Source: Collinsella tanakaei (GTDB lineage Bacteria > Actinomycetota > Coriobacteriia > Coriobacteriales > Coriobacteriaceae). From it: 64,000 bases of DNA. The position numbers were made by a program, and so were the translations under genes. Location of the stretch: contig NZ_JADYTL010000001.1 in assembly GCF_021531055.1 (NCBI RefSeq), positions 186,001 to 250,000 on the forward strand, written 5' to 3'. The first letter of the stretch is position 1, and each line of letters starts with the position of its first letter. Of this stretch, positions 8,793-32,355 are shown piece after piece. The notes beneath the pieces were generated by a model. The model worked only from the letters and a program-made list of their open reading frames with translations. It was not told the origin of the DNA and made no database searches.

Positions 8793-8806
8793 GGAAGGCG
8801 GCAACG

Positions 8807-9487: not shown

Positions 9488-9492
9488 CCGAC

Positions 9493-10674: not shown

Positions 10675-10680
10675 TGCATC

Positions 10681-12197: not shown

Positions 12198-13402
12198 TGT
12201 CCGCATCCGATCGTCAACGCCGGGCGCTCGTCTGCGTCACCGGCTGTATCGCCGCCTATAAGGCCTGTGAGATCGTCAGGCTCCTGCAAAAGCAGGATAT
12301 CGACGTCACGGTCTGCATGAGCGAACACGCGACGCGGTTCGTCGGTCCTACGACGTTTCGCGCGCTCACGCACCATAAGGTCGCCGTCTGTCTGTTCGAC
12401 GATCCCGAAGATCCCATCCATCACATCTCGCTTGCCCAGTGGGCAGACATCGTCATCGTGGCGCCTGCGACCGCGAACATCATCGCCAAGATGACCCATG
12501 GTATCGCCGACGACCTGATGTCGACGACGCTGCTGGCCACGCGCGCGCCGATCCTGGTCGCTCCGGCGATGAACGCCGGGATGTGGGAGGCTGCTGCGAC
12601 CCAGGAGAACATCGACACGCTTGCCCGCCGCGGCGTCCATATCGTACAGCCCGATTCGGGCTACCTTGCCTGCGGTGAGATTGCCTCCGGTCGCCTGCCT
12701 GAGCCCGCCGATATCGTCGACCGCGCCCTTGCGGTCCTCGGCTCCGGCGGTCCGTTGCAAGGGGAGCGCGTGCTGATCACCGCCGGCGGCACTCATGAGC
12801 CGATCGATCCCGTCCGTTTTATCGGCAACCGCTCCTCGGGAAAGATGGGTGTGGCGCTCGCTTATGCCGCCCAGGCGCTCGGCGCACAGGTGACCCTTGT
12901 GCTCGGACCCCATTCGGTCCGTGTTCCCGCGTCCATCACGTGCATCACCGCGGAAACCGCGTCCCAGATGCTCGACGCCGCACGTGCGGCGTTCGATGAG
13001 TGCTCGATCGCGGTGTGCGCCGCCGCCGTCGCCGACTATACGCCGTGCAGCCCGGCTGACCATAAGCTCAAAAAGGATGTCGAGCGTCTCGATCGCATCG
13101 AGCTCGAGGAGACGACCGACATTCTCGCCGATCTCTCGTCGCGCAAAGGCGACAGAACCGTCATCGGATTCGCCGCGGAAACCTCGGATGTCGTCTTGTA
13201 CGCGACACGCAAGCTTGCCACCAAGGGTTGCGATGCTATCGTCGCGAACGATGTCTCCCGTGACGATTCCGGTTTCGGAGCCGATACCGACCAGGCATGG
13301 TGGATCGATGCCACCGGGGCACAGGAGCTGCCCTGTATGGATAAATCCGATCTGGCGCGCGTCATCTTCGAGCGTGCCCTTGCGCTGCGGCCGGAAGGGT
13401 AA
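12197..13402 (+). CDS. coaBC: Bifunctional phosphopantothenoylcysteine decarboxylase / phosphopantothenate-cysteine ligase
   Basis: Two consecutive steps of coenzyme A synthesis. The CoaC half (residues ~1-185) binds FMN: VTGCIAAYKA, APATANIIAKM, PAMNAGMW and the active-site Cys in GYLACGEIASGR. The CoaB half starts with LITAGGTHEPIDPVRFIGN and contains SSGKMG. Length (401) is normal. ATG 12197 overlaps the previous stop (TGATG) and has GGAGG upstream; the open frame extends further but inside the preceding gene. This ends the 15-gene run that starts left of the window. Confidence 0.96.
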   Translation: MSASDRQRRALVCVTGCIAAYKACEIVRLLQKQDIDVTVCMSEHATRFVGPTTFRALTHHKVAVCLFDDPEDPIHHISLAQWADIVIVAPATANIIAKMTHGIADDLMSTTLLATRAPILVAPAMNAGMWEAAATQENIDTLARRGVHIVQPDSGYLACGEIASGRLPEPADIVDRALAVLGSGGPLQGERVLITAGGTHEPIDPVRFIGNRSSGKMGVALAYAAQALGAQVTLVLGPHSVRVPASITCITAETASQMLDAARAAFDECSIAVCAAAVADYTPCSPADHKLKKDVERLDRIELEETTDILADLSSRKGDRTVIGFAAETSDVVLYATRKLATKGCDAIVANDVSRDDSGFGADTDQAWWIDATGAQELPCMDKSDLARVIFERALALRPEG

Positions 13403-13460
13403 CGATCGCGTTTACTCTTGTACGAAGATGGAGGCGTTGCGAAAAAGTTTACATTGACGC

Positions 13461-13489
13461 TTGCATCGAGGGCGAGAGTTGAGTAAAGT
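13461..13489 (+). promoter_or_regulatory. Candidate sigma70 promoter for tRNA-Pro
   Basis: TTGCAT at 13461-13466 and TAAAGT at 13484-13489 with a 17-nt spacer. Transcription would start near 13496, about 27 nt before the mature tRNA. A TTGACG at 13454 has no -10 at a proper distance. This fits an independent promoter in the 120-nt gap after coaBC. Confidence 0.6.
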
Positions 13490-13522
13490 ATCCCTTGCTG
13501 TCAGCGAGACAGCGCATTGCTT

Positions 13523-13599
<77 letters not shown>

Positions 13600-13609
13600 G
13601 AAGCTTCAG

Positions 13610-13634
13610 GGGCAGTCGTTCGACTGCCCTTTTT
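13610..13634 (+). terminator. Rho-independent terminator after tRNA-Pro
   Basis: Stem GGGCAGTC (13610-13617) and GACTGCCC (13622-13629) with the tight loop GTTC, followed directly by TTTTT. This is a classic intrinsic terminator for the tRNA transcript. Confidence 0.85.
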
Positions 13635-13707
13635 GCTATGAAGGGATACTCCGGTCGTGTCGGGGTATCATTTGAGAAACTGTTCTCGACGGTCACGGGG
13701 GAGTGAC

Positions 13708-14463
13708 GTGAGCCTTAAGAAGAAGATCAAAAAAGAGTTGATCGGCACGTCCGACTACCCCTCGAACAAAATCTTCACCATCTCGAATTTCATCACGTTC
13801 GTCCGTCTCATCCTGACCTTCGTCTTCCTGTATCTGTTCATCAACAACGAGAACCGCTATATCGCGCTGGTCGTCTACGCCATCGCCGCCTCGACCGATT
13901 GGCTCGACGGACAGATCGCGCGCATGACCCGCACGGTCAGCTGGCTCGGCAAGCTCATGGATCCCATCGTGGACCGAGCACTGCTGTTCACCGGTGTCCT
14001 CGGACTCGTCGGTAGGGGAGAGCTCCCCATCTGGGTGTGCATCCTGATCATCGGTCGAGATGTCTACCTTGCCGCTGGCAATTTCATCGTGCGTCGGTTC
14101 CATCGTCGCCCCATCGACGTCGTCTACACCGGCAAGATCGCGACGGCGTTGCTCATGTCCGGCTTCTCGCTCATGCTGCTCGGCCTCCCGATCATCGATG
14201 GGCCTCAGCTCGTCTCGGCCTCAAACGTTTGGCTACCCGGCCTCGACGGCAGCCCCGTGCCGCTCGGTATCTTCTTCGTATACCTCGGCGTGGTGTTCTC
14301 CATGATCACCGCCGTCGTCTACACGGTAAAGGGCTCGCTCGCCATCAAACGCGCACGTCAGCATCCCGAGGAGGAGGACGTCGACTTTTTGAATCCCGAG
14401 ATCGACGATACCGACGAAGCCGCAAGCGTCACCGCCGCGAATGGACAAGCTGGGGTAGAATAA
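13708..14463 (+). CDS. CDP-alcohol phosphatidyltransferase family protein (PgsA-like)
   Basis: Membrane enzyme that moves a phosphatidyl group from a CDP-lipid to an alcohol. The signature is DWLDGQIAR, then GKLMDPIVD (D-X2-DG-X2-AR ... G-X3-D-X3-D), at about residues 70-95. Several hydrophobic segments follow, then an acidic cytoplasmic tail. GTG 13708 with GGGGGAG upstream gives 251 residues. It is one of two such enzymes here (the other at 35.0-35.7 kb beside recA); the acceptor, glycerol-3-phosphate, phosphatidylglycerol or inositol phosphate, cannot be read from sequence. It leads a group with the FHA and MerR genes. Confidence 0.85.
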   Translation: MSLKKKIKKELIGTSDYPSNKIFTISNFITFVRLILTFVFLYLFINNENRYIALVVYAIAASTDWLDGQIARMTRTVSWLGKLMDPIVDRALLFTGVLGLVGRGELPIWVCILIIGRDVYLAAGNFIVRRFHRRPIDVVYTGKIATALLMSGFSLMLLGLPIIDGPQLVSASNVWLPGLDGSPVPLGIFFVYLGVVFSMITAVVYTVKGSLAIKRARQHPEEEDVDFLNPEIDDTDEAASVTAANGQAGVE

Positions 14464-14508
14464 CAAGAACGCCCACGAGCATTCGCCTACACGATACGGA
14501 GTTTCACT

Positions 14509-14943
14509 ATGGCCGATAACCTGTACACTCAAAACGGACTCGATCACGTCAGCGATTCGACCTGTGTGTTCCGCATGCCCGTCGACGATGCGACCGTGCC
14601 CGATCTTATGAAGAGCGTGTCCAACACCATCCCGGTCCTCACCATCATCAAGGGTCCGCAGACCGGCAACACGTTCGAGCTCGAGGGTTCCGAGACCACC
14701 GTCGGTCGCGACCCCTCCAATGGCATCTTCCTGAATGACATGACCGTTTCCCGTGCCCACGCGAAGATCATCCGCAACGCCGCCGGCACCCTCATCGAGG
14801 ACCTCGGTTCGCTGAACGGCACGTGGGTCGACGGCGCTATCGTCAATTCCGCTCCGCTCCACGACGGTTCCTCCATCCAGATCGGCACGTTCACGCTGAT
14901 CTACCACGAAAGCCGTTCGGAGCGCATCGAAACCGGTGAATAA
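14509..14943 (+). CDS. FHA-domain protein, GarA-like
   Basis: Small phosphothreonine-binding protein. The FHA domain covers residues ~42-133, with the binding residues G66-R67, S81-R82-X-H84 and N103-G104 (TVGRDPSN, TVSRAHAK, SLNGTW). Its position directly before a FtsR-type MerR gene matches garA-ftsR of mycobacteria and corynebacteria. In those organisms GarA controls 2-oxoglutarate metabolism after phosphorylation by Ser/Thr kinases. The N-terminal ETTS-type phosphorylation motif is not visible in residues 1-40, so regulation may differ. ACGGAG precedes the ATG. Confidence 0.88.
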   Translation: MADNLYTQNGLDHVSDSTCVFRMPVDDATVPDLMKSVSNTIPVLTIIKGPQTGNTFELEGSETTVGRDPSNGIFLNDMTVSRAHAKIIRNAAGTLIEDLGSLNGTWVDGAIVNSAPLHDGSSIQIGTFTLIYHESRSERIETGE

Positions 14944-14945
14944 CG

Positions 14946-15797
14946 GTGGCTGAGCGCAGTTATCTGAGCATTGGACAGGTCGTCAACTACCTTCGTGGGG
15001 CCTATCCCGACCTCTCGAACTCCAAGATCCGTTTTCTGGAGGACGAGGGGCTCATCACGCCGCATCGTACGCCCAAGGGGTACCGTCAATATTCCAAAGA
15101 GGATGTCGATCGTCTCGAGGTCATCCTGCATCTGCAAAAGACCCGTTATATGCCCCTAAACGTTATCAAGCAGAAGCTCGATAACGCTACCGACCTTTCC
15201 ACCCTCGCATTCGAGGTCGGCCTGCTGTCCGATCTTCCCATGAAGGCGGAGCCCCGCGAGTCCCAGCAGAAGCTTCATCCCATCGAGGATGTTCCCGATT
15301 TGCTGGGTGTCGAGATCTCGTTCATCCGCGCACTTGCCGATAACGATTTGATCCGCATCATCCGCAGCCCGCAGAATCGCGAGCTTGTCGATGGCCGTGA
15401 CTTCGAGATCATCCGGCTGTGCTCCGAGCTCAATCGCTTCCATATCGAACCGCGCAATCTTCGCCAGTACGTCACCTCGGCGAACCGTGAATCCCCGATG
15501 TTCGAGCAGGTCCTCATCAGCATGCTCGGCATGGACGATTCAGACGACGAACGCAACATGAAGCTGGAGCGTGCCTTCAAGAAGCTGCACGACCTGACCG
15601 ACGGTGTCCATACGGCACTGCTCAAGAATCGCGTCTTCGAATCCCTGAACGCCGTCGTCTCCGATGCCGACCTCGATAGCGTGGACGATGAGATCACACG
15701 CTCGCACGCATCCAAGAAGGCCCAGCAAAGCGATGGCACCGCATCGAACGATACGCGTCGTCCTTCCTCTGGCTCGCGGCGCCGTACATCTCGTTAG
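14946..15797 (+). CDS. MerR-family transcriptional regulator, FtsR-like
   Basis: N-terminal MerR-type winged helix (YLSIGQVVNYL ... FLEDEGLITPHRTPKGYRQY), then a ~170-residue region without the cysteines of metal-sensing MerR proteins, and a low-complexity Ser/Arg tail. It begins with GTG 2 nt after the FHA gene. The same pair occurs in Actinobacteria, where FtsR has been described as an activator of ftsZ; that role is inference here. No target operator was identified in the window. 283 residues. Confidence 0.85.
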   Translation: MAERSYLSIGQVVNYLRGAYPDLSNSKIRFLEDEGLITPHRTPKGYRQYSKEDVDRLEVILHLQKTRYMPLNVIKQKLDNATDLSTLAFEVGLLSDLPMKAEPRESQQKLHPIEDVPDLLGVEISFIRALADNDLIRIIRSPQNRELVDGRDFEIIRLCSELNRFHIEPRNLRQYVTSANRESPMFEQVLISMLGMDDSDDERNMKLERAFKKLHDLTDGVHTALLKNRVFESLNAVVSDADLDSVDDEITRSHASKKAQQSDGTASNDTRRPSSGSRRRTSR

Positions 15798-15807
15798 GAG
15801 TAAGAGC

Positions 15808-16341
15808 ATGGAGCTTCAGGAGCTTTCGTCCCTCGTCATCGATATTCCCGACTATCCTGAGCCCGGGGTCGTGTTCAAGGACATCACGCCGTTGTTCACC
15901 GACAGCCACGCGCTCGCGAGCGTTATCGATGCCTTGGCCGATCACTTCAAGGATGCCGGCATCACGAAGGTAATCGCTCCTGAGGCCCGCGGTTTTCTTG
16001 TCGGTGCGCCCGTCGCGTACAAACTCGGTGCCGGATTCGTTCCCGCCCGCAAACCAGGTAAACTCCCGCGCGAGACGATCTCCGCGTCATACGAACTTGA
16101 ATACGGCACCGACTCCATCGAGATCCATCGCGATGCGCTGACCGCCGATGATCGCGTGATCATCCTGGACGACCTGATCGCCACCGGCGGTACCGCGAAA
16201 GCCGTCGCCTCACTTGTGGACCGACAGGGTGCCGAGCTTGTCGGTTACGGCTGTATCCTCGAGCTTTCGTTCTTGCATCCGAGATACGTCCTTGCGCGCG
16301 AAGGCGACATCGACGTGTATTCGCTCCTCGTCGTCGAATAG
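15808..16341 (+). CDS. apt: Adenine phosphoribosyltransferase
   Basis: Salvages adenine to AMP using PRPP. The PRPP loop VIILDDLIATGGTAKA, the RKPGKLP segment and the N-terminal IPDYPEPGVVFKDITPL are diagnostic. ATG 15808 follows TAGGAG that overlaps the stop of the MerR gene, so it is probably co-transcribed. 177 residues, normal. A purine permease of the AzgA type near 47-48 kb could supply its substrate. Confidence 0.96.
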   Translation: MELQELSSLVIDIPDYPEPGVVFKDITPLFTDSHALASVIDALADHFKDAGITKVIAPEARGFLVGAPVAYKLGAGFVPARKPGKLPRETISASYELEYGTDSIEIHRDALTADDRVIILDDLIATGGTAKAVASLVDRQGAELVGYGCILELSFLHPRYVLAREGDIDVYSLLVVE

Positions 16342-16414
16342 ATCCGCACCACACGACATACGTGGCGCCTTTTATCGCGTCGTTCGTCCTTCTGCCTATG
16401 TTTATGAATGAAAC

Positions 16415-16444
16415 TTGGTTCATTCTGCATAACTCGGGTATCCT
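16415..16444 (+). promoter_or_regulatory. Candidate promoter for pepV
   Basis: TTGGTT at 16415-16420 and TATCCT at 16439-16444 with an 18-nt spacer, about 38 nt upstream of the start codon in the 141-nt gap after apt. Both boxes are imperfect. An imperfect hairpin after apt (near 16345-16368) ends in CTTTTA and could be its terminator. Confidence 0.4.
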
Positions 16445-16482
16445 GTCAGTGTGATGTCGCGTTTCTGACAGAAAGGATCATC

Positions 16483-17892
16483 ATGGCTGACGCTCAACGC
16501 ATGAAGGAAATCGATGCCTGGATAGATGAGAACTGGGAGACGATCATCTCGGAGATCGAGACACTCGTGAACATTCCGAGCCAAGAGGACCTCGATCACG
16601 CCGCACCGGGTGCGCCGTTCGGCCCCGGTCCGCTCAAGGCGCTGAACGCCGGTCTTGACCTGTGTTCGCGCCTCGGCATGGATGCGCAGAACCATGAGGG
16701 CTTCGTCGGTACGGCGGACTATCCCGGTGCCGACCCCGACAAACATATCGCCCTGATCGCCCATCTGGATACCGTGCCCTGTGGCCCCGGCTGGTCCCAG
16801 GACCCCCATATCATGACCCGTCGTGACGGGTATCTGATCGGCCGCGGCACGCTCGACGACAAGGGGCCCTTCGTCGTCGGAGCCTACGCTATGCGCTACT
16901 GGCATGACCACGGCGCATCGTTCCCGTACACCATGCGTATGATCCTCGGTGCGAACGAGGAAACCACGCTTCGCGACGTCGAGTATTACCTCGAGCACTT
17001 CGGAGAGCCCGCCTTCCTTATGACCCCCGATGCCGAATTCCCGGTCTGCTATGGCGAGAAGGGCATCTACCAGGGTGTCTTCACCTCCGGCCCCATAACG
17101 GATCCCAAGATCGTCGACTGGCACGCCGGTGAGGCCTTCAACGCCATTCCTACGGATGCCGATGTCACGGTTGCAGCCGACATCGCCGCGCTCCCTGCGG
17201 CCGATGGCATCACGCTGACCGATCTTGGCGACGGCACGGTGCGTATCGCCGCCAAGGGCAAGGGCGGCCATGCCTCTCAGCCGCAGGGTGCGATCAATGC
17301 GATCGGTATGCTCGTCGACTATATGCTCGACAACGATCTCGTCTCCGAATCTGAACGTCAGTTCCTGACCCTCCAGAAGACCTTGATCGACGACTATTCC
17401 GGCGCCGGTGTCGGTGTCGCCGCCAGCGATGACCTTTTCGGCGATCTGACGATCATCGGCGGCATGGTGTGGCGCGATGAGGATGGAACGCTTCATCAAT
17501 CCGTCGACTCGCGGTATCCGACCACGTTCAGCTGTGCTCAGTTCGAGCAGGCTCTTTCTGCCACCGCTGCTCGCTTCGGAGCGATCTACGCGACCGACAA
17601 CGATACCGAGCCGTTCTATATCGATCCCAACGGTCCGGAGATTCAGAAGCTTATCGCTATCTACAACGATGTGACGGGGGAGGACCGCAAGCCGTTCACG
17701 ATCGGCGGCGGTACCTACGCACGAGAGTTCAAGAACGCCGCGGGCTTCGGGCCCGAGATGCCGTGGGTCGAGACGCCCTCTTGGGTCGGGCCCATGCATG
17801 GCGACGATGAAGGCGTGAGCGAGGAGCTGCTCAAGACCACGCTGAAGATCTACATCCTCGCCATCGAGGAGATCATGAAGATCGAATACTAA
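16483..17892 (+). CDS. pepV: M20-family dipeptidase, PepV-like
   Basis: Zinc metallopeptidase that releases N-terminal residues from dipeptides and some tripeptides, feeding amino-acid use in an anaerobe. The dinuclear zinc site is visible: H94-X-D96 (IAHLDTVP), RGTLDDKGP near 121-129, the catalytic Glu pair in LGANEET (159-160) and D183 in TPDAEFP. A lid/dimerisation domain is inserted in the middle, and the last ligand region is GPMHGDDEG. 469 residues is normal for PepV. ATG 16483 follows AAAGGA. Confidence 0.9.
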   Translation: MADAQRMKEIDAWIDENWETIISEIETLVNIPSQEDLDHAAPGAPFGPGPLKALNAGLDLCSRLGMDAQNHEGFVGTADYPGADPDKHIALIAHLDTVPCGPGWSQDPHIMTRRDGYLIGRGTLDDKGPFVVGAYAMRYWHDHGASFPYTMRMILGANEETTLRDVEYYLEHFGEPAFLMTPDAEFPVCYGEKGIYQGVFTSGPITDPKIVDWHAGEAFNAIPTDADVTVAADIAALPAADGITLTDLGDGTVRIAAKGKGGHASQPQGAINAIGMLVDYMLDNDLVSESERQFLTLQKTLIDDYSGAGVGVAASDDLFGDLTIIGGMVWRDEDGTLHQSVDSRYPTTFSCAQFEQALSATAARFGAIYATDNDTEPFYIDPNGPEIQKLIAIYNDVTGEDRKPFTIGGGTYAREFKNAAGFGPEMPWVETPSWVGPMHGDDEGVSEELLKTTLKIYILAIEEIMKIEY

Positions 17893-17921
17893 GCCGTTAA
17901 ACGTTCTGGCGACGTAACAGC

Positions 17922-17963
17922 GACGCCCGCGCCCTACGATGAAAGCCGTGGGGCACGGGCGTC
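17922..17963. terminator. Strong GC-rich hairpin between convergent genes, probable bidirectional terminator
   Basis: A 13-bp stem with a single mismatch: GACGCCCGCGCCC (17922-17934) against GGGCACGGGCGTC (17951-17963), with a 16-nt loop. It lies 30 nt after pepV (+) and 23 nt after the end of the convergent DUF1836 gene (-). No T-run of four or more follows on either strand, so termination efficiency is uncertain. Confidence 0.5.
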
Positions 17964-17986
17964 CTATCGTTCATTCGAACAGATGC

Positions 17987-18601
17987 CTATGCGTCTCGAT
18001 ACCCTAAAAACGTAAGATAGCTCATCAGGAACGCCTTAGCCGCAAAAGCGGAAGCCGCACTGCGGACCAGAACGGTCTCACGCGTCACGAGCGACGCGGT
18101 GTCCTCATGGCGTGTACCGCTCGCATCGAACGCATCGGAAACGGCGTTGTTGATCTCGACGGCGACATAGTTGTAGGCGACCCCGATCGGATAGGTCATA
18201 CGCTGGATGCCGATGAGCTTTCGAATCGCCTCGATTGAGAGGAACTGCTTGAAAATGCAGATAATCAGCAGGTGAGCGATGTGGTCGCGACGGTAAAGCT
18301 TCTTATTGGGAGCAGGAACCAAGTGCTGCTTGACGTAATTGTTCACCATCGACGCGGTAAGCCATGAGCCCTCTGAGCATGCGCTAAGAGGGGAGAGGAT
18401 ATGGTCGATGTAGGAAAGGACCTGATCACGGTATAGTTCGACGGAAGGAAGCTCATCGTATGAGGGCAGATGGAAGCGCCCGGCGGAAAGAGCCTCCTCG
18501 GATGACAGGAATGCATCGGGAAGCACCGTCGGCGCGACATCGGCGGGAACAATCGGTTTCGCGTCATCGGACATGGGGATGACCGTCGGATGCTGCGGCA
18601 T
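17987..18601 (-). CDS. DUF1836 domain protein
   Basis: 204 residues. The domain covers about residues 43-150 with typical stretches LPSYDELPSVELYRDQVLSY, MVNNYVKQHLV and RRDHIAHLLIICIFKQ; its C-terminal half looks helical. DUF1836 is found mainly in Firmicutes and relatives and has no proven function. The YRRDHIAHLL region resembles a MerR-like helical layout, so DNA binding is possible but unproven. It stands alone and is the only minus-strand gene left of the dif-like site. GGAAG precedes the start; an in-frame ATG 9 codons later is an alternative. Confidence 0.8.
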   Translation of the reverse strand: MPQHPTVIPMSDDAKPIVPADVAPTVLPDAFLSSEEALSAGRFHLPSYDELPSVELYRDQVLSYIDHILSPLSACSEGSWLTASMVNNYVKQHLVPAPNKKLYRRDHIAHLLIICIFKQFLSIEAIRKLIGIQRMTYPIGVAYNYVAVEINNAVSDAFDASGTRHEDTASLVTRETVLVRSAASAFAAKAFLMSYLTFLGYRDA

Positions 18602-18732: not shown

Positions 18733-18769
18733 GGTGCTAACGTCATCGTCACGCGAAAGGATTTGTCCA

Positions 18770-19642
18770 ATGTCATGGGCTATCGTCGCTGATTCCAGCT
18801 GCAATCTGCGTTCCTGGACGCCAACGGCGCCCGATACCGTCTTCGTATCTGCACCATTGACGATCCATGTCGCCGATACCGAATTCGTAGATGACGAGCA
18901 GCTCGATGTCGCCGAGCTGAATCGCGCCGTCGCCGCGGAGCAGGAGGCATCGTCGAGCTCGTGCCCGAGCGTCGGGCGTTGGGCCGAGGAGTTCCGTCGT
19001 GCCGACAACGTCATCGCGATCACGATTTCCGCCAACCTGTCCGGAAGCTATGAAGCTGCGAGTACCGCACGAAATATCGTGCTCGACGAGTACACGCGCG
19101 ACCACGCAGGCGTCATCTCCGGTAAGAACATCTTCATTTTGAATTCGCGCGCCACCGGCGGCAAGATGGAGCTGATCGTCGAACTATTAGATCGGTACCT
19201 AACTGATCATCACCCGACATTCGACGAGGCCGTCGAGTACGTTCAGAGTCTCGATGCGGCGTCCACCGTGCTGTTCTCGCTGTCTCGCTATGACAATCTC
19301 GTAAAAAACGGTCGCATGCCGCGACTCGCGGGTTCCATCGCCAGCAAGCTCAACATCCGCATGCTCGGATGTGCAAGCGATGAGGGGACCATCAAGATCG
19401 TCGGTCCGACGCGCGGCGAGAAGAAGATGTATCGCAAGGTCGTCGACTGCATGGCCGGCTATGGCTATCACGGCGGCTTGGTCTACATCGACCATGTCGA
19501 TAACGAGGCCGCTGCAGCGGAACTGCAGCGGCTCATCTGCGAGCAATGGCCGAACGCGACCGTACGGATCGTGCCCTGTGGCGGTCTCTGTTCGTACTAC
19601 GCCGAGGAGTCCGGTCTTATCATCGGGTTCGAGTGGGCTTAG
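18770..19642 (+). CDS. DegV family fatty-acid-binding protein (FakB-like)
   Basis: DegV proteins bind a fatty acid and, as FakB, present it to the kinase FakA for phosphorylation and entry into phospholipid synthesis. Visible: WAIVADSSCN at the N-terminus, ITISANLSGSYEAAS, LSRYDNLVKNGRMPR and a final Cys/Gly-rich segment. 290 residues. No FakA is in the window. The start is ATG 18770 with GAAAGG upstream. An intrinsic terminator follows, then the dif-like site. Confidence 0.9.
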   Translation: MSWAIVADSSCNLRSWTPTAPDTVFVSAPLTIHVADTEFVDDEQLDVAELNRAVAAEQEASSSSCPSVGRWAEEFRRADNVIAITISANLSGSYEAASTARNIVLDEYTRDHAGVISGKNIFILNSRATGGKMELIVELLDRYLTDHHPTFDEAVEYVQSLDAASTVLFSLSRYDNLVKNGRMPRLAGSIASKLNIRMLGCASDEGTIKIVGPTRGEKKMYRKVVDCMAGYGYHGGLVYIDHVDNEAAAAELQRLICEQWPNATVRIVPCGGLCSYYAEESGLIIGFEWA

Positions 19643-19668
19643 GTCTCATCGCCAACGTATAGCAGGTA

Positions 19669-19708
19669 AACGAGAGGGCAGGAGCAATTGTTCCGGCTCT
19701 CTCGTTTT
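19669..19708 (+). terminator. Intrinsic terminator of degV
   Basis: Stem AACGAGAGGGC (19669-19679) against GCTCTCTCGTT (19696-19706), 11 pairs with one G-U, an inner extension GGAGC/GTTCC, then TTTT. It ends 11 nt before the dif-like site and would keep transcription out of it. Confidence 0.8.
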
Positions 19709-19718: not shown

Positions 19719-19746
19719 ACCTGACATAACATATATTATCGTGATT
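19719..19746. other. dif-like XerC/XerD recombination site (chromosome dimer resolution)
   Basis: Read on the minus strand, a 28-bp site shows an 11-bp XerC-side arm AATCACGATAA (19746-19736), a 6-bp spacer TATATG and an 11-bp XerD-side arm TTATGTCAGGT (19729-19719). The XerD arm differs at one position from the actinobacterial arm TTATGTCAAGT as I remember it. The inner six bases of the XerC arm (CGATAA) also match that consensus; the outer five do not. It lies in a gene-free gap between convergent degV and trxB, exactly where gene polarity switches. No xerC/xerD genes are in the window, but ftsK is 19 kb away. Confidence 0.72.
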
Positions 19747-20040: not shown

Positions 20041-20088
20041 ATAAATCCGCGCCCTGTAGACGGTTTCATCCGTCTACAGGGCGCGGAT
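20041..20088 (-). terminator. Large hairpin, probable terminator of trxB
   Basis: A perfect 19-bp inverted repeat (20045-20063 and 20070-20088) with a 6-nt loop; the arms contain CCCTGTAGACGG and its complement. On the minus strand it is followed by TTTAT. It lies 60 nt beyond the trxB stop and, with the degV terminator, brackets the dif-like site. Confidence 0.7.
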
Positions 20089-20148: not shown

Positions 20149-21096
20149 CTACAATCGTTCGCATGTCTCCAGGTACGCATATGCCGCACTGCCGGCGATT
20201 GCGCCATCAGATGCCGCAGTCACAACTTGACGGAGCTTCTTCGACCTCATATCACCGGCACAGAACAGCCCAGGGGTCTTCGTGGCCATGGACTCATCGG
20301 TGACGACTCCCCCATCGTCAGCCAGATCGATAAATGGCTTAATCAGATCGACCACCGGATCGTTTCCGGCAAAGACGAACACGCCGAATGAACCCTCCGG
20401 ATAGGACTCGTCGTAGTCCTCGCCCGTTCGATTATCGCGAAACGTGATGGTGCTCAACAGACGATCGCCGGAGACGCGCGCGATGGATGTCGAGTACTTC
20501 ACATCGACGTTATCCCGCTCAAGGAGTCGGTCGACACGACCACGCGGCGCCCTAAACGCATCGCGCCTGACGACCATGGTGACGTCCTGCGCGATATGTG
20601 ACAAGTACAAACCCTCTTCGCATGCGGAATTGCCACCGCCGATGACGAAGACCCGCTTGCCGCGATAGAACATGGCATCGCACGTGGCGCAATACGAGAC
20701 GCCACGGCCGCGGAACGTATCCTCTCCATCGAACCCTGCCGTACGAGGTTGCGCGCCGGTAGCCATGATGAGTACGGGAGCCTGCACGGAGCCGGAATCG
20801 GTTTGGATGATGAAGTCGCCCGAGTCGTCGCGCTCGATACCCGTGACCATCGTATAGTCGACGTCCACGCCGGCTGATTGAGCATGGTCGAGCATCTTCG
20901 AACCGAGTTCAGCTCCCGAGATACTCGGAAAACCAGGGTAATTATCTACCGTATCGGAGGTAGCGATCTGCCCTCCGGGCATACCCTGCTCGATCAAAAG
21001 CGTATTCAGGCTTGCACGTGCTGCGTATATGCCAGCCGTGCTTCCAGCCGGGCCTCCACCGATGATCACCACATCGTAGTTCTTCACATCATCCAT
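20149..21096 (-). CDS. trxB: Thioredoxin reductase
   Basis: Flavoprotein that reduces thioredoxin with NADPH. It has the N-terminal FAD motif IIGGGPAGSTAGIYAAR, the redox-active disulfide CATC in GVSYCATCDAMF, the NADPH motif VIGGGNSACEEGLYL and a C-terminal FAD segment GLFCAGDMR. Length 315 is normal. GGGAG precedes the start. No thioredoxin gene is adjacent. It diverges from the glycosyltransferase gene and converges with degV across the dif-like site. Confidence 0.96.
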   Translation of the reverse strand: MDDVKNYDVVIIGGGPAGSTAGIYAARASLNTLLIEQGMPGGQIATSDTVDNYPGFPSISGAELGSKMLDHAQSAGVDVDYTMVTGIERDDSGDFIIQTDSGSVQAPVLIMATGAQPRTAGFDGEDTFRGRGVSYCATCDAMFYRGKRVFVIGGGNSACEEGLYLSHIAQDVTMVVRRDAFRAPRGRVDRLLERDNVDVKYSTSIARVSGDRLLSTITFRDNRTGEDYDESYPEGSFGVFVFAGNDPVVDLIKPFIDLADDGGVVTDESMATKTPGLFCAGDMRSKKLRQVVTAASDGAIAGSAAYAYLETCERL

Positions 21097-21201
21097 CGCG
21101 AACTCCCTATCCTGCTCCGAATCGGCGGCATGTGAACTTCAGACGTCGTATGCCATGACGTTCATTTACTGAAGAATACCCCTTGCGGTACAAGTTCAGA
21201 C

Positions 21202-21207
21202 TACAAT
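21202..21207 (+). promoter_or_regulatory. Candidate -10 element for the glycosyltransferase gene
   Basis: TACAAT 44 nt before the start codon in the 154-nt divergent gap between trxB and the glycosyltransferase. The nearest -35-like hexamer (TTGCGG at 21183) is only 13 nt away, so the pair is not convincing. Confidence 0.3.
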
Positions 21208-21250
21208 AGCGGAGATAGCGAGCACACCGAGGGTTTGGACTTTCCCACCC

Positions 21251-22546
21251 ATGCAGACCGAACAGACCGAACAAATCGCAGATACGCTTCGCGAGGCCGA
21301 CGGCGCATCCGTCAACGTCTCGTCCAGCGAGCGTCCGATCATCACGATCATGCACGCCTCGGTCGGTTCAGGTCATAAGGCCGCTGCCAACGCCGTCGCG
21401 CAGGCGGTCGACCGCCTACGAGGCACGCATGGCGTTCCCGCCGATGTCGAGCTCGAGGTCATCGACATCCTGGACTTCGGTCGCATCAAGTTCGATGGAA
21501 ACAAGACGGCTGCCGCCTTCACGGGAGCGACGCGTCCGATCTACGACATCACGTGGCGCTATACGCTCACCGGCCGACTGCTTTGGGGCGGCGGAACGGG
21601 TTGGTCGCGTGTCATGTTTCCGGCTTTCAACGAATATATCGTGAACAAGCGGCCCATCGCGATCATCGCGACGCACATCACGGCCGCCAACGTGGCGGTC
21701 GGCGCCCGCATGATCACCGGAATCGAATACCCGATCGTCTGCATTCCCACAGACTATGAGATTGAAGGATGGTGGCCGCATAAGGAGACTGATCTGTTCT
21801 GCGTGGCCACCGAGTTCATGGCCGAAACCTTGCGTCCTCGCCACGTAAAGGAATCCTCGATCTGCATCACCGGCATACCGGTCCGCGGCGGATTTGACGA
21901 TCCCATCGATCATGACGAGGAATGCGAGCGGTTCGGACTTCCCAAAGACAAGCTCCTCGTGCTCGTTATGGCCGGCGCCAGCCTTCCACAGCCGTATGTC
22001 AGGTTCCGTGCCGCCATCGAGCAGACGCTTCCGTTTCTACGGGGTTTGGAGCAGATGCATTTCGTGTTTCTGCCTGGTCGCGATAAGGAATACGCCGATC
22101 GCCTGAACAAGATCTTCGATGCGATGAAGCTCGAGAACGTAACCGTGCTCGACTATGTCGAGGATATGGCGACACTGATGCGCATCTGCGATGTCGCGAT
22201 TCTTAAATCCGGAGGCCTCACGGTCACGGAATGCCTCTGTGCGCGTCTCCCGATGATCCTGCTCGGCAAATCGTATGGCCAGGAAAAGGCGAACACCACC
22301 ATGTTGACCGGATTCGGCGCCAGCATGCATGCCACCACAGCCCGTGAACTCATTATGGTACTCAGGCACCTGCACGATAATCCCGCCGCATTGAAGGCGT
22401 TGCTGGTCAATGCCGAGGGTCTGCGCCATCCCGATGCCGCAGATATCATCGTCGACAAGACGATGGGTCTTGTCGGAAGGGACGTCAAGCGCGAAAAGCA
22501 CTTTGCCGAATTCTATTGGGGCGATAAGCCGGCCCACATCCGATAG
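21251..22546 (+). CDS. MGDG synthase / UgtP-like glycosyltransferase (GT28 family)
   Basis: Probably transfers sugar from a UDP-sugar to diacylglycerol at the membrane, making glycolipid or a lipid anchor. The N-terminal MGDG-synthase domain is marked by IMHASVGSGHKAAANAV. The C-terminal sugar-nucleotide half contains ILKSGGLTVTECLCARLP, the GT28 signature, and FLPGRDKEYADRL. 431 residues. The product and whether it acts processively cannot be told from sequence. About 30 polar residues precede the domain. Confidence 0.88.
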   Translation: MQTEQTEQIADTLREADGASVNVSSSERPIITIMHASVGSGHKAAANAVAQAVDRLRGTHGVPADVELEVIDILDFGRIKFDGNKTAAAFTGATRPIYDITWRYTLTGRLLWGGGTGWSRVMFPAFNEYIVNKRPIAIIATHITAANVAVGARMITGIEYPIVCIPTDYEIEGWWPHKETDLFCVATEFMAETLRPRHVKESSICITGIPVRGGFDDPIDHDEECERFGLPKDKLLVLVMAGASLPQPYVRFRAAIEQTLPFLRGLEQMHFVFLPGRDKEYADRLNKIFDAMKLENVTVLDYVEDMATLMRICDVAILKSGGLTVTECLCARLPMILLGKSYGQEKANTTMLTGFGASMHATTARELIMVLRHLHDNPAALKALLVNAEGLRHPDAADIIVDKTMGLVGRDVKREKHFAEFYWGDKPAHIR

Positions 22547-22550
22547 AAAA

Positions 22551-22588
22551 AGACATCGCCCTGCACCTCTTGACGAGATGCAGGGCGA
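22551..22588 (-). terminator. Terminator of dut (possibly bidirectional)
   Basis: Stem TCGCCCTGCA (22556-22565) with TGCAGGGCGA (22579-22588). On the minus strand it is followed by TGTCTTTTTC. It lies in the 65-nt gap between the convergent glycosyltransferase and dut genes. Confidence 0.75.
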
Positions 22589-22611
22589 CAACGTATCAGA
22601 TCCGAGATGCC

Positions 22612-23055
22612 TTATTTAGCGCCACTGGAGCCGAAACCACCGGTGCCACGGTCGGTTTCGTCGAGCTGATCCACCTCGACGAGTCGCACGGCGGGAACAG
22701 CTTGGATCACAAGCTGAGCTATGCGCTCACCACGCTCGATATGAACCGGGTGATCAGGGTCGAGATTGATGGCGATGACCTTCAGCTCCCCACGATAGTG
22801 GGCATCGATGAGGCCGGGCGTGTTCGCAACCGAAAGGCCGCGCTTCAGCGCCATGCCGCTTCGCGGCAGCACGAAGCCGGCATATCCATCGGGAATCGCG
22901 ATGGCAAGACCTGTCGGGACAAGCACACGTCCATGCGGCGGGATGTCGACATCGGCATTGGCGCGTAAATCGAGTCCGGCATCGCCCTCATAGGCATAGG
23001 ATGGCAGCTCGACGTCGTCATCGAGACGCGTGATGGAAACGTTCAACGTGGTCAT
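22612..23055 (-). CDS. dut: dUTP diphosphatase
   Basis: Hydrolyses dUTP to dUMP, keeping uracil out of DNA and supplying dTMP synthesis. The five trimeric dUTPase motifs can be followed, including DAGLDLRAN, PRSGMALK, NTPGLIDAHYRGE, RIAQLVI and the C-terminal arm RGTGGFGSSG. 147 residues, normal. It starts 4 nt after nrdR, so the two probably share a transcript that links dUTP removal with ribonucleotide reductase control. Confidence 0.96.
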   Translation of the reverse strand: MTTLNVSITRLDDDVELPSYAYEGDAGLDLRANADVDIPPHGRVLVPTGLAIAIPDGYAGFVLPRSGMALKRGLSVANTPGLIDAHYRGELKVIAINLDPDHPVHIERGERIAQLVIQAVPAVRLVEVDQLDETDRGTGGFGSSGAK

Positions 23056-23059
23056 GCAT

Positions 23060-23503
23060 TCACCTCAACTTATCCAGCTCTTCAAGGAACTCGTCGATGT
23101 CCTTAAAATCGCGATAGACGGACGCGAAACGGATATACGCGACCTTGTCGATCTTTTCAAGCCGCTTGAGCACCATATCGCCGATATCATGAGAGCTCAC
23201 AGCGGTAAGCGTCCTACCCCGAAGCTCGTGCTCGATATCGTCGATAAGGGCGTTCAGCGCGGAAAGCTCGATATCGCGCTTCGTGGTGGCGCGCATAAGA
23301 CCGACAAGCAACTTATTCCGATCAAACGGCTGTGTGGTGCCATCGCTTTTAAGCACCTCGATGGGATCCTCGCAGCGCTCGAACGTCGTGAATCGGTAGC
23401 CGCATGAACGGCACTCACGACGCCGTTTGATGGCGTTCGTCACCTCTTGCGTACGAGAATCGACGACACGGGTATCGCCTTTACCGCACTTTGGACAACG
23501 CAT
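23060..23503 (-). CDS. nrdR: Transcriptional repressor NrdR
   Basis: Represses ribonucleotide reductase operons in response to bound (d)ATP. It has an N-terminal zinc ribbon (MRCPKCGKGDTRVVDSR ... CRSCGYRFTTFER), then an ATP-cone domain. I start it at MRCPKCG (23503), with GGGAG upstream; the frame is open 7 codons further. 147 residues, normal. The order LysM protein-nrdR beside lexA is typical of Actinobacteria. No nrd structural genes are in the window. Confidence 0.96.
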   Translation of the reverse strand: MRCPKCGKGDTRVVDSRTQEVTNAIKRRRECRSCGYRFTTFERCEDPIEVLKSDGTTQPFDRNKLLVGLMRATTKRDIELSALNALIDDIEHELRGRTLTAVSSHDIGDMVLKRLEKIDKVAYIRFASVYRDFKDIDEFLEELDKLR

Positions 23504-23539
23504 GGGATCTCCCTCGACGATCATATGGACATCTCAGTT

Positions 23540-23548
23540 AGCATACCA
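23540..23548 (-). promoter_or_regulatory. Candidate extended -10 promoter for nrdR-dut
   Basis: Read on the minus strand, TGG-TATGCT (23548-23540), a TGn-extended -10, about 37 nt before the nrdR start. A clear -35 is lacking, as is common for extended -10 promoters. Confidence 0.45.
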
Positions 23549-23560
23549 TGACGTCGATGT

Positions 23561-23590
23561 GAGAAGAAAAGCCCTACAGCGTAGGCGCAC
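23561..23590 (-). terminator. Possible terminator of the LysM gene
   Basis: On the minus strand a short stem (CTAC/GTAG flanked by GC pairs, about 23571-23590) is followed by TTTTCTTCTC. The stem is short, so the prediction is modest. It lies between the LysM stop and the nrdR promoter candidate. Confidence 0.45.
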
Positions 23591-23595
23591 GACGA

Positions 23596-24003
23596 TCAGG
23601 CGGGCACCACGATTTCCATACCCGGGTACACCAGGCCCTCGGGCACATTGTTCCACGAGCGGATGATGGATACCGTCTCGTCCACGGAAAGACCCTCGAG
23701 CGGATGCGACTGGGCAAGCGACCAGAGGGTATCACCAGACTGCACCACGACCTCCGTGCGCGAGGAGGATTCGCACATCTGGTCGAACGCTACTTGTTGA
23801 GCGTGAAGCTGCAGGAATCCGAATGCGAGCATGAGCGCGCAGATGGCGACGACGGCAAAGACACATGCGGGATGCGCGTTATCTTGACGCACGTTCGACG
23901 CAGCGGGCACCGTGGCACGGCGGCCTTCGACAACCTGAAACAGGGGCTTCTCGGCCACAGGCGCCAGCGCGAGGTTGCCGTCGATCATCGCATATGTCTT
24001 CAT
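23596..24003 (-). CDS. Single-pass membrane LysM protein, probable SOS-induced division inhibitor
   Basis: 135 residues: a ~45-residue cytoplasmic segment, one membrane helix (about 46-66) and a C-terminal LysM domain (about 84-134, VVQSGDTLWSLAQ ... IIRSWNNVPEGLVYPGMEI). Position and layout match the LysM gene divergent from lexA in Actinobacteria (Rv2719c type) and YneA of Bacillus, which delay division during SOS. No peptidoglycan hydrolase domain is visible. AGGAGA precedes the start. A TTGACA/CATAAT promoter with a LexA box in its spacer lies upstream, so SOS control is well supported; the division role is inference. Confidence 0.85.
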   Translation of the reverse strand: MKTYAMIDGNLALAPVAEKPLFQVVEGRRATVPAASNVRQDNAHPACVFAVVAICALMLAFGFLQLHAQQVAFDQMCESSSRTEVVVQSGDTLWSLAQSHPLEGLSVDETVSIIRSWNNVPEGLVYPGMEIVVPA

Positions 24004-24073
24004 ACCCTATCTCCTCTCGTCTGGATGACGATATAGGTATACCGTGCCGTGTGGACAAAATTCTCTGGCACTG

Positions 24074-24085
24074 GAACGGATGTTC
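24074..24085. promoter_or_regulatory. LexA (SOS) box 1
   Basis: GAACGGATGTTC, a match to GAAC-N4-GTTC, the LexA site of Gram-positive and actinobacterial type. It covers the predicted transcription start of the LysM gene on the minus strand and would sit between the weak -35 and -10 of lexA on the plus strand. Confidence 0.85.
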
Positions 24086-24092
24086 GTATATC

Positions 24093-24120
24093 ATTATGGG
24101 CGAACAGTTGTTCCTGTCAA
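24093..24120 (-). promoter_or_regulatory. Promoter of the LysM gene
   Basis: On the minus strand TTGACA (24120-24115), a 16-nt spacer and CATAAT (24098-24093). LexA box 2 fills the spacer, so bound LexA would block RNA polymerase. This is the strongest promoter in the lexA/LysM gap. Confidence 0.75.
24102..24113. promoter_or_regulatory. LexA (SOS) box 2
   Basis: GAACAGTTGTTC, a match to GAAC-N4-GTTC, lying inside the spacer of the LysM promoter and 28 bp from box 1. Confidence 0.87.
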
Positions 24121-24129
24121 GGGAAAATG

Positions 24130-24141
24130 GAACATATGTTT
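24130..24141. promoter_or_regulatory. LexA (SOS) box 3
   Basis: GAACATATGTTT, one base off GAAC-N4-GTTC, exactly 28 bp from box 2 and just before the lexA ribosome site (AAGGAGAGG). It could act as a roadblock or autoregulatory site for lexA. Confidence 0.75.
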
Positions 24142-24157
24142 GGATAAGGAGAGGAAC

Positions 24158-24796
24158 ATGGCGCGCAAGATCACCAAGCGGCAGCAGCAGATCTACGATT
24201 TCATTCGCTCCTACCAGCAGGAGAAGGGCTATCCGCCTAGCGTACGGGAGATGGCGGCGGCAGTCGGTCTCTCCTCCCCCTCCACCGTCCATGCCCATCT
24301 CTCCGCGCTCGAGGATCACGGCCTTATCAAGCGCGATAAAACCAAGCCCCGTGCCCTCGAGGTGTTCAACGAAGATGGCTCTGCGACAAAGCTGGCTGAG
24401 GTCAAGGAGGCTCCCGATCGGGGTACGGTTTCGCTGCCGCTCATCGGTCGTGTTGCCGCCGGTCTTCCGATCCTGGCCGAGCAAAACGTCGAGGACACGT
24501 TCACGCTTCCCACCGAGATCGCGACCGACTCGAGCTCCTTCGTGCTCGAGGTTCACGGTAACTCGATGATCAACGCGGGGATCTACAACGGCGACTACAT
24601 CATCGTCCGCGAGCAGACAAGCGCCATGAACGGCGAGATCGTCGTCGCCATGATCGACGGCGAGGCGACGGTGAAAACGTTCTATAAAGAACAGGGTCGT
24701 GTGCGCCTCCAGCCCGAAAACGATGCCATGGAGCCCATCTACGTGACGAATCCGACCATCTTAGGCAAGGTCGTCGCGCTCATGAGGCGTTTCTAG
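24158..24796 (+). CDS. lexA: SOS repressor LexA
   Basis: Repressor and self-cleaving protease of the SOS regulon. It has an N-terminal winged helix (RQQQIYDFI ... GYPPSVREMAAAVGLSSPSTVHAHL), the cleavage site A101-G102 in GRVAAGLP, the catalytic Ser136 in GNSMINAG and Lys173 in EATVKTFYK. 212 residues, normal. ATG 24158 follows AAGGAGAGG; the frame open upstream runs through the SOS boxes and is not used. Three LexA boxes precede it. It diverges from the LysM gene and is followed 9 nt later by DUF1624. Confidence 0.97.
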   Translation: MARKITKRQQQIYDFIRSYQQEKGYPPSVREMAAAVGLSSPSTVHAHLSALEDHGLIKRDKTKPRALEVFNEDGSATKLAEVKEAPDRGTVSLPLIGRVAAGLPILAEQNVEDTFTLPTEIATDSSSFVLEVHGNSMINAGIYNGDYIIVREQTSAMNGEIVVAMIDGEATVKTFYKEQGRVRLQPENDAMEPIYVTNPTILGKVVALMRRF

Positions 24797-24805
24797 GCTA
24801 CACGC

Positions 24806-25537
24806 ATGTCCGAAACGACGACGCACGACCGTACCGCTCCGGAGCGTATCGCCTTCTTCGATATGCTCCGGGGCCTCGTCATCATATCGATGATCGCTTT
24901 CCACGCGACCTATGATGCCGCGTATATCTACGGATTCCATGTGCCCTGGTTCACCGATCCGGTGATACAGGATGTTTGGCGCGCGACGATCAGTTGGACG
25001 TTTCTCGCGCTCGCCGGTTGGATGACCTCCCTTTCCAGAAACAACTTCAAACGCGCTGTCGTCTACGGCATCTTCGCGTTCATCATATGGTTGGCGACAA
25101 GTGTCGTATCGGTGGATACGCCCGTGAGCTTCGGCATCATATACTGCATGGGGTTCTGCACACTCATCTACGCGCTTATTCGCCCTGTTCACGAGCGTAT
25201 CAATCCGGTAATCGGTCTTATCCTCTCGCTCGCGTTATTCGGGCTTCTGTGGCATATTCCTCGAGGCACATACGATGTCGTTGGTTTCTCCTGGCTTGGA
25301 TTCCCGGGGCCCGGCTTTGCATCGGGAGATTACTATCCGCCGATCCCCTTTCTATACATGTACCTTGCGGGAAGCTTTGCCGCAAAACTGCTCGTCAAGC
25401 TGCGACCAGCAGGATATCCCGCTTGGATGAAACGAGATACGATTCCGTTTCTCTCGTGGCTCGGAAGGCATAGCTTGGCAATCTACGTGATCCATCAGCC
25501 GTTGCTCATCGCCTGCTTCGAGCTCATCTCACGCTAG
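24806..25537 (+). CDS. DUF1624 / heparan-alpha-glucosaminide N-acetyltransferase-like membrane protein
   Basis: 243 residues with about seven hydrophobic segments. The N-terminal FFDMLRGLVIISMIAFHATYD is typical of membrane acyltransferase-type DUF1624 proteins, and the C-terminal LGRHSLAIYVIHQPLL resembles the end of acyltransferase-3 proteins. It may transfer an acetyl or other acyl group to a cell-envelope sugar, but no substrate is known. It starts 9 nt after lexA, so read-through would place it under SOS control. It ends 2 nt from the convergent hflX. Confidence 0.82.
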   Translation: MSETTTHDRTAPERIAFFDMLRGLVIISMIAFHATYDAAYIYGFHVPWFTDPVIQDVWRATISWTFLALAGWMTSLSRNNFKRAVVYGIFAFIIWLATSVVSVDTPVSFGIIYCMGFCTLIYALIRPVHERINPVIGLILSLALFGLLWHIPRGTYDVVGFSWLGFPGPGFASGDYYPPIPFLYMYLAGSFAAKLLVKLRPAGYPAWMKRDTIPFLSWLGRHSLAIYVIHQPLLIACFELISR

Positions 25538-25539
25538 AT

Positions 25540-26829
25540 TTATTCCGTGCGGAATCGCTCCAACTTGTTCGCGAGCCTATGCGGGACCTTTGCAACGATG
25601 CGCACGCACGTATCGAGGTACTCCTCAGAAACGACCTGTCCCCGCTCATGGACGAGCTTGATGAGAGCGCCCTCACGATACGGTATCTCGGCGCTGAGCA
25701 AGCGATCGGTAGCAGCAGCCTCCTGCACAAGACGCTCAAGAAGCTCGACGGTGCCCAGTCCGGTATAGGCCGAATACAGCAACGCGCCGGGATGTCGACG
25801 CCGAAACAGATCCGCCTCCTCATCAGAAAGCAAGTCGGCTTTATTGAAGACGGTGAGCGTCGGACGATCGCCGGCGCCGATCTCCTCAAGAACCCGATCG
25901 ACCGCTTCAAGCTGGCGCAGATACTCGGTATCGGCGCAATCGACAACCTTGATGATCAAATCCGCTTCGAGAACCTCGGAAAGCGTCGACTTAAACGCCT
26001 CGACGAGTCCGTGCGGAAGCTTCTGGATGAAGCCTACCGTATCGGTGATGGTGACGGCGCGACCGCCGGGAAGCGTATACGAACGCGTGGTGGGATCGAG
26101 CGTGGCGAACAGTTTGTCCTCCGACAAAACGTTCGACCCGGTCAGCGCGTTCAACATAGTCGACTTACCCGCATTCGTGTAACCGGCAAGCGCGATTCGA
26201 AACGCATCGGATGAACTGCGGCGCTTCGATTGAACGCCGCGTCGCTTCTCAAGCTCACGTAGCTCACGACGGAGCGAGGAAATCCTGTTTCTGATGAGAC
26301 GGCGATCGACCTCGAGCTGGCTTTCGCCCTGACCGAATCTGCTTCCGATGCCACCGCGCGTCTGTTCTTTGGCAAGATGCGACCACATACCGCGAAGACG
26401 AGGAAGCAGATATTGCAGCTGAGCGAGCTGAACCTGGAGCCTGCCCTCTCGCGTGGTGGCATGAAGTCCGAAAATGTCGAGGATCAGCGCCGTGCGGTCG
26501 ATGATCTTGGTCGGTTCGCCGATCGCACGCTCCAGATGCGACTGTTGAGCGGGCGTAAGATCGTCATCGAAGATGACCACATCGGCATCAAGGCGAGCGA
26601 CCATGGACTTGAGCTCCTCGAGCTTGCCCGACCCGATAAAGGACTTGGGAACCGGACGCTCGAGACGCTGCGTCATCCTGCCCACGACGACCGCCCCCGC
26701 CGTGTCGACAAGGCGCTCGAGCTCATCGAGCGAACGCTCGACCGGCCAACTGTCGCGTCTCCATTCGACACCGACGAGCACCGCGCGCTCGGGCTCGATG
26801 GCGGTGGATAAGAAGGTGAACCTCGTCAT
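25540..26829 (-). CDS. hflX: Ribosome-associated GTPase HflX
   Basis: GTPase that binds the 50S subunit and splits stalled or hibernating ribosomes. The N-terminal HflX domain (GSGKLEELKSMV, DDDLTPAQQ) and a basic coiled coil (RLIRNRISSLRRELRELE) precede the G domain with GYTNAGKST, then DTVGFIQKLPH and NKAD. 429 residues. The start MTRFTFLS at 26829 overlaps the end of miaA by 4 nt; the frame open upstream is inside miaA. The order miaB-miaA-hflX is widespread. Confidence 0.94.
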   Translation of the reverse strand: MTRFTFLSTAIEPERAVLVGVEWRRDSWPVERSLDELERLVDTAGAVVVGRMTQRLERPVPKSFIGSGKLEELKSMVARLDADVVIFDDDLTPAQQSHLERAIGEPTKIIDRTALILDIFGLHATTREGRLQVQLAQLQYLLPRLRGMWSHLAKEQTRGGIGSRFGQGESQLEVDRRLIRNRISSLRRELRELEKRRGVQSKRRSSSDAFRIALAGYTNAGKSTMLNALTGSNVLSEDKLFATLDPTTRSYTLPGGRAVTITDTVGFIQKLPHGLVEAFKSTLSEVLEADLIIKVVDCADTEYLRQLEAVDRVLEEIGAGDRPTLTVFNKADLLSDEEADLFRRRHPGALLYSAYTGLGTVELLERLVQEAAATDRLLSAEIPYREGALIKLVHERGQVVSEEYLDTCVRIVAKVPHRLANKLERFRTE

Positions 26830-29137: not shown

Positions 29138-29140
29138 ACC

Positions 29141-29467
29141 CTACCCGACTCGAAGGTTATCGTCCGTGCGGTCGAAATCGAATGCATCGCCGCTATGCGT
29201 GGAAAGACTATGGACATAGATGGCGAGCCTGATCGCGGTCCGGGACTCACCGTTGATGAGGATATCCGAGAACACCGGTGCACAGGAGATATCGAAACCC
29301 GTGGGAATCAAAAAGCCACGTGCGATGGCGATCGCCTTGATCGCCTGATTGACCGCACCGGCACCGACGCACTGGATGTTGACCGGCACACCGTCTTTGA
29401 CCATACCCGCAATCGCGCCGGCGACGGAAGCCGGTGACGACTTGCTGGAGACTTTCAGAAATTCCAT
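29141..29467 (-). CDS. spoVS: SpoVS-family Alba-like protein
   Basis: Small nucleic-acid-binding protein of the SpoVS/Alba fold. The core is nearly invariant in the family (EFLKVSSKSSPASVAGAIAG, VGAGAVNQAIKAIAIARGF). 108 residues, with a ~20-residue acidic C-terminal extension. The start MEFLKVSS at 29467 has AGGAGA upstream. The gene is widespread outside spore formers, so it does not imply sporulation. Here it heads miaB-miaA-hflX and follows the GHKL ATPase gene. Confidence 0.93.
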   Translation of the reverse strand: MEFLKVSSKSSPASVAGAIAGMVKDGVPVNIQCVGAGAVNQAIKAIAIARGFLIPTGFDISCAPVFSDILINGESRTAIRLAIYVHSLSTHSGDAFDFDRTDDNLRVG

Positions 29468-29546
29468 GCTACGATTCTCCTGCATATAAGCATCGTTTAG
29501 GCAAAGTTATAGTAAATGTAGCCCATCGGAGCCGAAGCCACAAGGG

Positions 29547-30635: not shown

Positions 30636-30640
30636 CGTCG

Positions 30641-32191: not shown

Positions 32192-32355
32192 GCTAGATTA
32201 CTCCTTCATAACGTTTCAAGTAACAGAAAGGCACCATCCGAAAAAACGGACAGCACCCGACATTTGCTAGGGAATGGTCACCCCATATGAAATGAATGTA
32301 TCCAATATCAATCTCATCGATGATGAGCGCATATCACATAACAAATGACGTTTTT

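Follow-up and report, generated by a model that had tools for sequence, protein, structure and literature searches.

The very likely chromosomal dif site of Collinsella tanakaei and a polar heptamer that may guide FtsK towards it

Where does chromosome replication end in Collinsella tanakaei, whose GC skew is almost absent, and does a dif site lie at that place? The question is raised by a 28-bp sequence in a 64,000-nucleotide stretch of its genome (hereafter the window), which an earlier note, made from the letters of the DNA, had put forward as a candidate chromosomal dif site between convergent degV and trxB genes. A literature search, thin on subscription journals, gave no publication on dif or KOPS in the Coriobacteriia. 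We conclude that this sequence is almost certainly the chromosomal dif, at which strand exchange would be expected to take place. The candidate is backed by its uniqueness in the genome, its conservation and synteny among relatives, and the position of a switch in strand bias. It is an ordinary single terminus site of a well-known kind, real and probably never marked before. Around it, we found a strongly polar heptamer, RGGGGAG, which we consider as a possible guide of the DNA translocase FtsK.

A dif-type sequence in a gap between convergent genes

Read on the minus strand, from 19746 to 19719, the site is AATCACGATAATATATGTTATGTCAGGT. The three parts described in the earlier note, i.e., an XerC-type arm ending in CGATAA, a 6-bp spacer and an XerD-type arm, are located there on that strand (Table 1). 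The 11-6-11 arrangement with inverted arms and the conserved XerD arm TTATGT-A are those of dif sites. The sequence is also intergenic and low in G+C, as expected of dif: G or C occupies 8 of its 28 bases, against about 62% G+C in the window.

The stop codons of degV (19642) and of the trxB-type gene (20149), which converge on dif, delimit a gap of 506 nt, in agreement with the gene-free gap of about 500 nt that had been described, and the identity of the two neighbours is confirmed by their Pfam matches. We found no credible gene within this gap, and an Rfam search of it gave one match, far under the gathering score. The claim that a terminator flanks the site on each side stood in part. From the sequence, terminators on both sides are plausible, but only the one on the degV side is clear: on the trxB side, the hairpin is followed on the minus strand by just TTATCGAG, a weak U tract. 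This second hairpin is GC-rich with a 6-nt loop and lies in a gap of about 400 nt, whose counterpart in the closest relatives is long as well.

Table 1. Features of the window that bear on the dif site (positions counted from the first letter of the window).
Feature	Position	Strand	Evidence or remark
RGGGGAG, nine copies, all towards dif	1772..18389	+	motif count
degV-family gene, towards the XerD arm of dif; actual start possibly further downstream	18734..19642	+	PF02645, E 4e-40; conserved dif neighbour
Terminator-like hairpin after degV, then TTTTG	19668..19707	+	inverted repeat; fold -30.3 kcal/mol, z -5.4
dif site, 28 bp (almost certain)	19719..19746	-	sequence; genome uniqueness; genus/class conservation; synteny
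XerD arm, 11 bp, TTATGTCAGGT	19729-19719	-	part of dif
dif spacer, 6 bp, TATATG	19735-19730	-	between arms
XerC arm, 11 bp, AATCACGATAA	19746-19736	-	part of dif
Perfect 19-bp hairpin after trxB, likely terminator	20045..20088	-	inverted repeat 100%; fold z -7.8
trxB-type gene (pyridine-nucleotide disulphide oxidoreductase), towards the XerC arm of dif	20149..21096	-	PF07992, E 2e-42; conserved dif neighbour
RGGGGAG, eighteen copies, all towards dif	20313..63874	-	motif count
ftsK, DNA translocase with gamma (winged-helix) domain	39041..41854	-	FtsK_gamma PF09397, E 7.5e-28; PRK10263, E 1.5e-128 over the C-terminal part

The site lies at the replication terminus

A chromosomal dif should lie opposite oriC/dnaA, and this is what we observed in five relatives with near-closed assemblies, where the distance from dif to dnaA is 45-48% of the contig. 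In two relatives (G001 and G026), the search for dnaA also returned many repeated weak matches to the DnaA-domain ATPase, with up to 17 extra copies; these are probably helper proteins of the IstB type, belonging to an IS21-like element.

The closed relative G027 (one contig, 1.72 Mb) shows a turn of the skew at the site, as had been anticipated. Its GC skew is +0.061 at 910-922 kb and -0.083 at 935-947 kb, on either side of a dif at 928.6 kb, i.e., the sign changes less than 13 kb from dif, and the AT skew turns there too. For C. tanakaei itself, skews and motifs were counted in sampled 12-kb stretches. To the left of dif the AT skew takes mostly negative values, and to its right it is consistently positive. 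The GC skew is near zero on the leading strand (-0.002), shows no clear turning point and is too weak to bear on the matter; we therefore dropped GC skew alone as a marker of the terminus here. A turn of the skew far from the site, which would have spoken against it, did not appear. In one relative, the orientation of dif relative to the skew seemed reversed. We set this observation aside as well: when a circular chromosome is reverse-complemented, the site is flipped but the skew pattern is not.

The strand switch of RGGGGAG, a marker outside the checks listed in the earlier note, is the sharpest of these lines of evidence and gives a closer estimate of the boundary. The last copy on the plus strand is at 18389 and the first on the minus strand at 20313, an interval of 1.9 kb that includes dif (19733). 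The earlier claim that the site fixes the replichore boundary of this genome is thus borne out, and the terminus is pinned to 2 kb or less in spite of the almost absent GC skew. Overall, the skews, the switch of the heptamer and the position of dnaA opposite the site in relatives place the sequence at the terminus.

A heptamer directed towards dif on both arms

The heptamer emerged from an unguided count of 5- to 8-mers on the leading strand over 304 kb of contig C8, which carries dif. In this sample, GGGGGAG is directed towards dif in 72 cases against 0, and AGGGGAG in 42 against 1, whereas sequences differing by one base are much less biased or unbiased (CGGGGAG 31:21, TGGGGAG 7:7, GGGGGCG 32:26). 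Taken together, RGGGGAG points towards dif in 114 of the 115 cases sampled in the 304 kb, and in all 27 cases in the window. We separated these counts by gene strand, with genes approximated by long non-overlapping open reading frames (ORFs), and obtained 63:0 in leading-strand genes, 38:0 in lagging-strand genes and 13:1 outside the approximate ORFs. Because the bias is the same in genes of both strands, the polarity is not a codon effect.

The same trend is found beyond this contig. Around dif in the loci of 20 relatives, RGGGGAG totals 151 copies towards the site and 11 away from it. The contig with dnaA shows the heptamer heading outwards from the origin region in both directions, apart from some exceptions. 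The YGGGGGAG octamers listed for a contig of another genus of the order switch strand near 850 kb, with the dif of that contig at 1716 kb, and this position of the switch fits an origin opposite dif. The KOPS-type motifs GGGNAGGG, GAGAAGGG and GAAGAAG were also tried, and they are less biased here than RGGGGAG.

Short motifs that are strand-biased and switch at dif, as RGGGGAG does, are expected among architecture imparting sequences (AIMS) and FtsK-guiding motifs (KOPS). Judged by its polarity, the heptamer is a good candidate KOPS. Yet the Chi site of a recombination-repair enzyme could leave a similar trace, since Chi motifs likewise favour the leading strand and change over at the terminus; Chi and KOPS both point along the leading strand and change direction at dif. 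The two classes are set apart by abundance and bias, which rise towards the terminus in AIMS/KOPS (PMC5993296). RGGGGAG is denser around dif, with 3.8 copies per 10 kb (115 in the 304 kb of C8), than on the other sampled contigs, with 1.7 per 10 kb (40 in 240 kb), and in the sampled stretches its bias is weaker near dnaA and thus rises towards the terminus; within 250 kb of dif, we saw no clear gradient. Furthermore, (T/C)GGGGGAG is an architecture imparting sequence in Corynebacterium (PMC2830990). These observations make the Chi reading unlikely. We find it rather probable that RGGGGAG serves as the KOPS in Collinsella, and probably also elsewhere in the Coriobacteriia, with an almost perfect polarity (114:1) that is independent of gene strand and of GC skew. 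Being polar almost without error, the heptamer is a directly testable candidate guide of FtsK for this class.

A single site per genome, conserved beyond its flanks

We scanned the 2.23-Mb draft assembly (16 contigs, 98% completeness) with the 20-bp core CGATAAN6TTATGTCA. It has a single exact match, which is dif, as the earlier note had foreseen for a scan of the whole genome. The assembly has no match to this core with one mismatch, and scattered ones arise only at two or three mismatches; a better dif match elsewhere in the chromosome is thus absent from the 2.23-Mb draft. When a 23-bp core was allowed up to three mismatches, the window gave 1 match against 0.03 expected from shuffles.

The earlier note had also asked for conservation across Coriobacteriia genomes beyond the flanking sequence, and this was found at two levels. 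Within the genus, a pattern search revealed one dif-type site in each of 45 Collinsella genomes: 37 matched with at most one mismatch, the commonest form being GATAATATATSTTATGTMA, and the other 8 matched with a shortened, loosened pattern. The relatives with names to which degV led are Collinsella species. Within the class, the exact pattern GATAATN5TTATGTNA is present in 277 of 331 genomes, almost always once per genome, and in this exact form it is missing from 54; the reversed control pattern matched in just a handful of class genomes. To separate the conservation of the site from that of its surroundings, we computed the information content of 28 sites with unrelated surroundings (flanks of 200 bases sharing less than 50% identity). 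The mean is 1.54 bits per position in the site, against 0.13 bits in the flanks. The core is conserved by construction, but position 1 (an A, 1.41 bits) and the last three positions, 26-28 (1.05, 1.29 and 2.00 bits), lie outside the search pattern, and their conservation is therefore independent evidence.

The order trxB, XerC arm, XerD arm, degV, with convergent genes, is kept in nearly all loci examined in the genus, and the 28-bp dif between trxB and degV offers a marker transferable to Collinsella as a whole. Two loci (L165 and L167) have an extra gene of the DUF1836 family between dif and degV, an arrangement that, judged by the spacing to degV, is probably common to their whole clade. 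In L157 (genome G016), about 3.8 kb of extra DNA (~6120-10070) separates trxB from dif. Its ORFs, read by eye, include apparent pieces of an IS110-type transposase, a beta-lactamase-type serine hydrolase and the end of a serine recombinase; it is an insertion beside dif. In L158 (genome G031, ~9760), dif is inverted relative to degV, and apparent truB-ribF-dnaG-rpoD genes replace trxB on the opposite side, which is a rearrangement with its breakpoint at the terminus. A second dif in genome G024, 726 bp from the first, falls inside degV and was rejected as a chance match. Throughout the order, most spacers are TATATC or TATATG, although recombination demands spacer identity between sisters only. 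One genus (g29) has many differing spacers, e.g., TCACAG, TCAGTG, TCGCAG and TCGTTG.

These data bear on two other explanations of the site. Xer-exploiting elements (IMEX) use copies of dif, and L157 carries extra DNA with an IS110-type transposase piece between trxB and dif; the sequence might then be the attachment site of such an element, present or past, rather than the chromosome's own dif. But the genome has no second dif-like site, no element adjoins dif, and nearly all relatives have this site between the same two genes, which makes such an origin extremely improbable. Short palindromic sites are common in intergenic gaps, but that this one is a chance AT-rich palindrome or the operator of a transcription factor is scarcely credible, given the 0.03 matches expected in the window, a single site in each genome of the genus and in most of those of the class, a strand-bias switch 2 kb away or less, and a location between gene ends rather than promoters. 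We therefore retain the chromosomal dif.

Recombinases, FtsK and a proposed mechanism

Use of a dif site calls for two Xer recombinases in the same genome, and two of the XerC/D type are encoded. A profile search found six tyrosine recombinases. The one at 447.7 kb of C8 (310 aa) is above the XerD equivalog cut-off (TIGR02225). The one at 168.7 kb of C8 (also 310 aa) is above the cut-off of the XerC/XerD subfamily and under both the XerC and the XerD equivalog cut-offs; by elimination, we assign it to XerC.

The ftsK gene is about 19 kb from dif. The gamma domain of its product aligns to the E. coli and P. aeruginosa structures, and the recognition helices of this FtsK and of E. coli FtsK are matched to each other in the alignment. 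The residues with which E. coli FtsK reads KOPS are R1300, E1303 and E1306 (PMC2680272); counted on the alignment, they correspond to R, D and E here. By analogy, this FtsK would be the expected activator of Xer recombination.

In the E. coli scheme, polar motifs lead FtsK to the XerCD-bound dif, where the gamma domain triggers XerD (PMC5357621). A similar course can be proposed for Collinsella. An odd number of crossovers between sister chromosomes would produce a dimer. FtsK at the division septum would load on polar motifs and pump DNA towards the terminus, probably by reading RGGGGAG, which is directed to dif on both arms. When FtsK meets the pair of dif sites bound by XerC/XerD, its gamma domain would trigger XerD. 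First XerD and then XerC would exchange strands across the TATATG spacer, so that the dimer would be resolved before division. We infer this order of events from the E. coli system; the parts and their placing are those found here.

Comparison with known systems

The site resembles the proteobacterial dif/XerCD systems (PMC2731167) in its layout, conserved XerD arm, low G+C, intergenic location and strand-bias switch, and differs from them in the outer arm bases and in lineage. It also resembles the proposed dif of Frankia alni, CACGCCGATAATGCACATTATGTCAAGT (PMC3025954). Both have the 11-6-11 layout and an XerC arm ending in CGATAA, and both are intergenic, single-copy and located at the terminus. 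The XerD arms are the same except for one base (A to G, arm position 9), which accords with the single mismatch to an actinobacterial arm given in the earlier note. The spacer (TATATG here, TGCACA in Frankia) and the outer part of the XerC arm (AATCA here, CACGC in Frankia) are different.

As a candidate guide, RGGGGAG can be compared with the KOPS GGGNAGGG of E. coli and V. cholerae. Both are G-rich polar motifs converging on dif, and an FtsK gamma domain accompanies both. Their sequences differ, and in this genome GGGNAGGG has fewer copies and a lower bias (30:7) than RGGGGAG. The motif itself is not new, since the octamer (T/C)GGGGGAG is the architecture imparting sequence that was used to find dif in Corynebacterium aurimucosum (PMC2830990). 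The same octamer is biased to the leading strand and switches at dif in both lineages, with counts of 58:0 in the sampled contig here and 856:61 over the whole C. aurimucosum chromosome (PMC2830990), although the best unit here is the heptamer RGGGGAG. It is the near-perfect polarity in Collinsella that provides a lead to the guide of FtsK. If RGGGGAG does have this role, its sharing with the distant Corynebacterium would point to an old actinobacterial KOPS.
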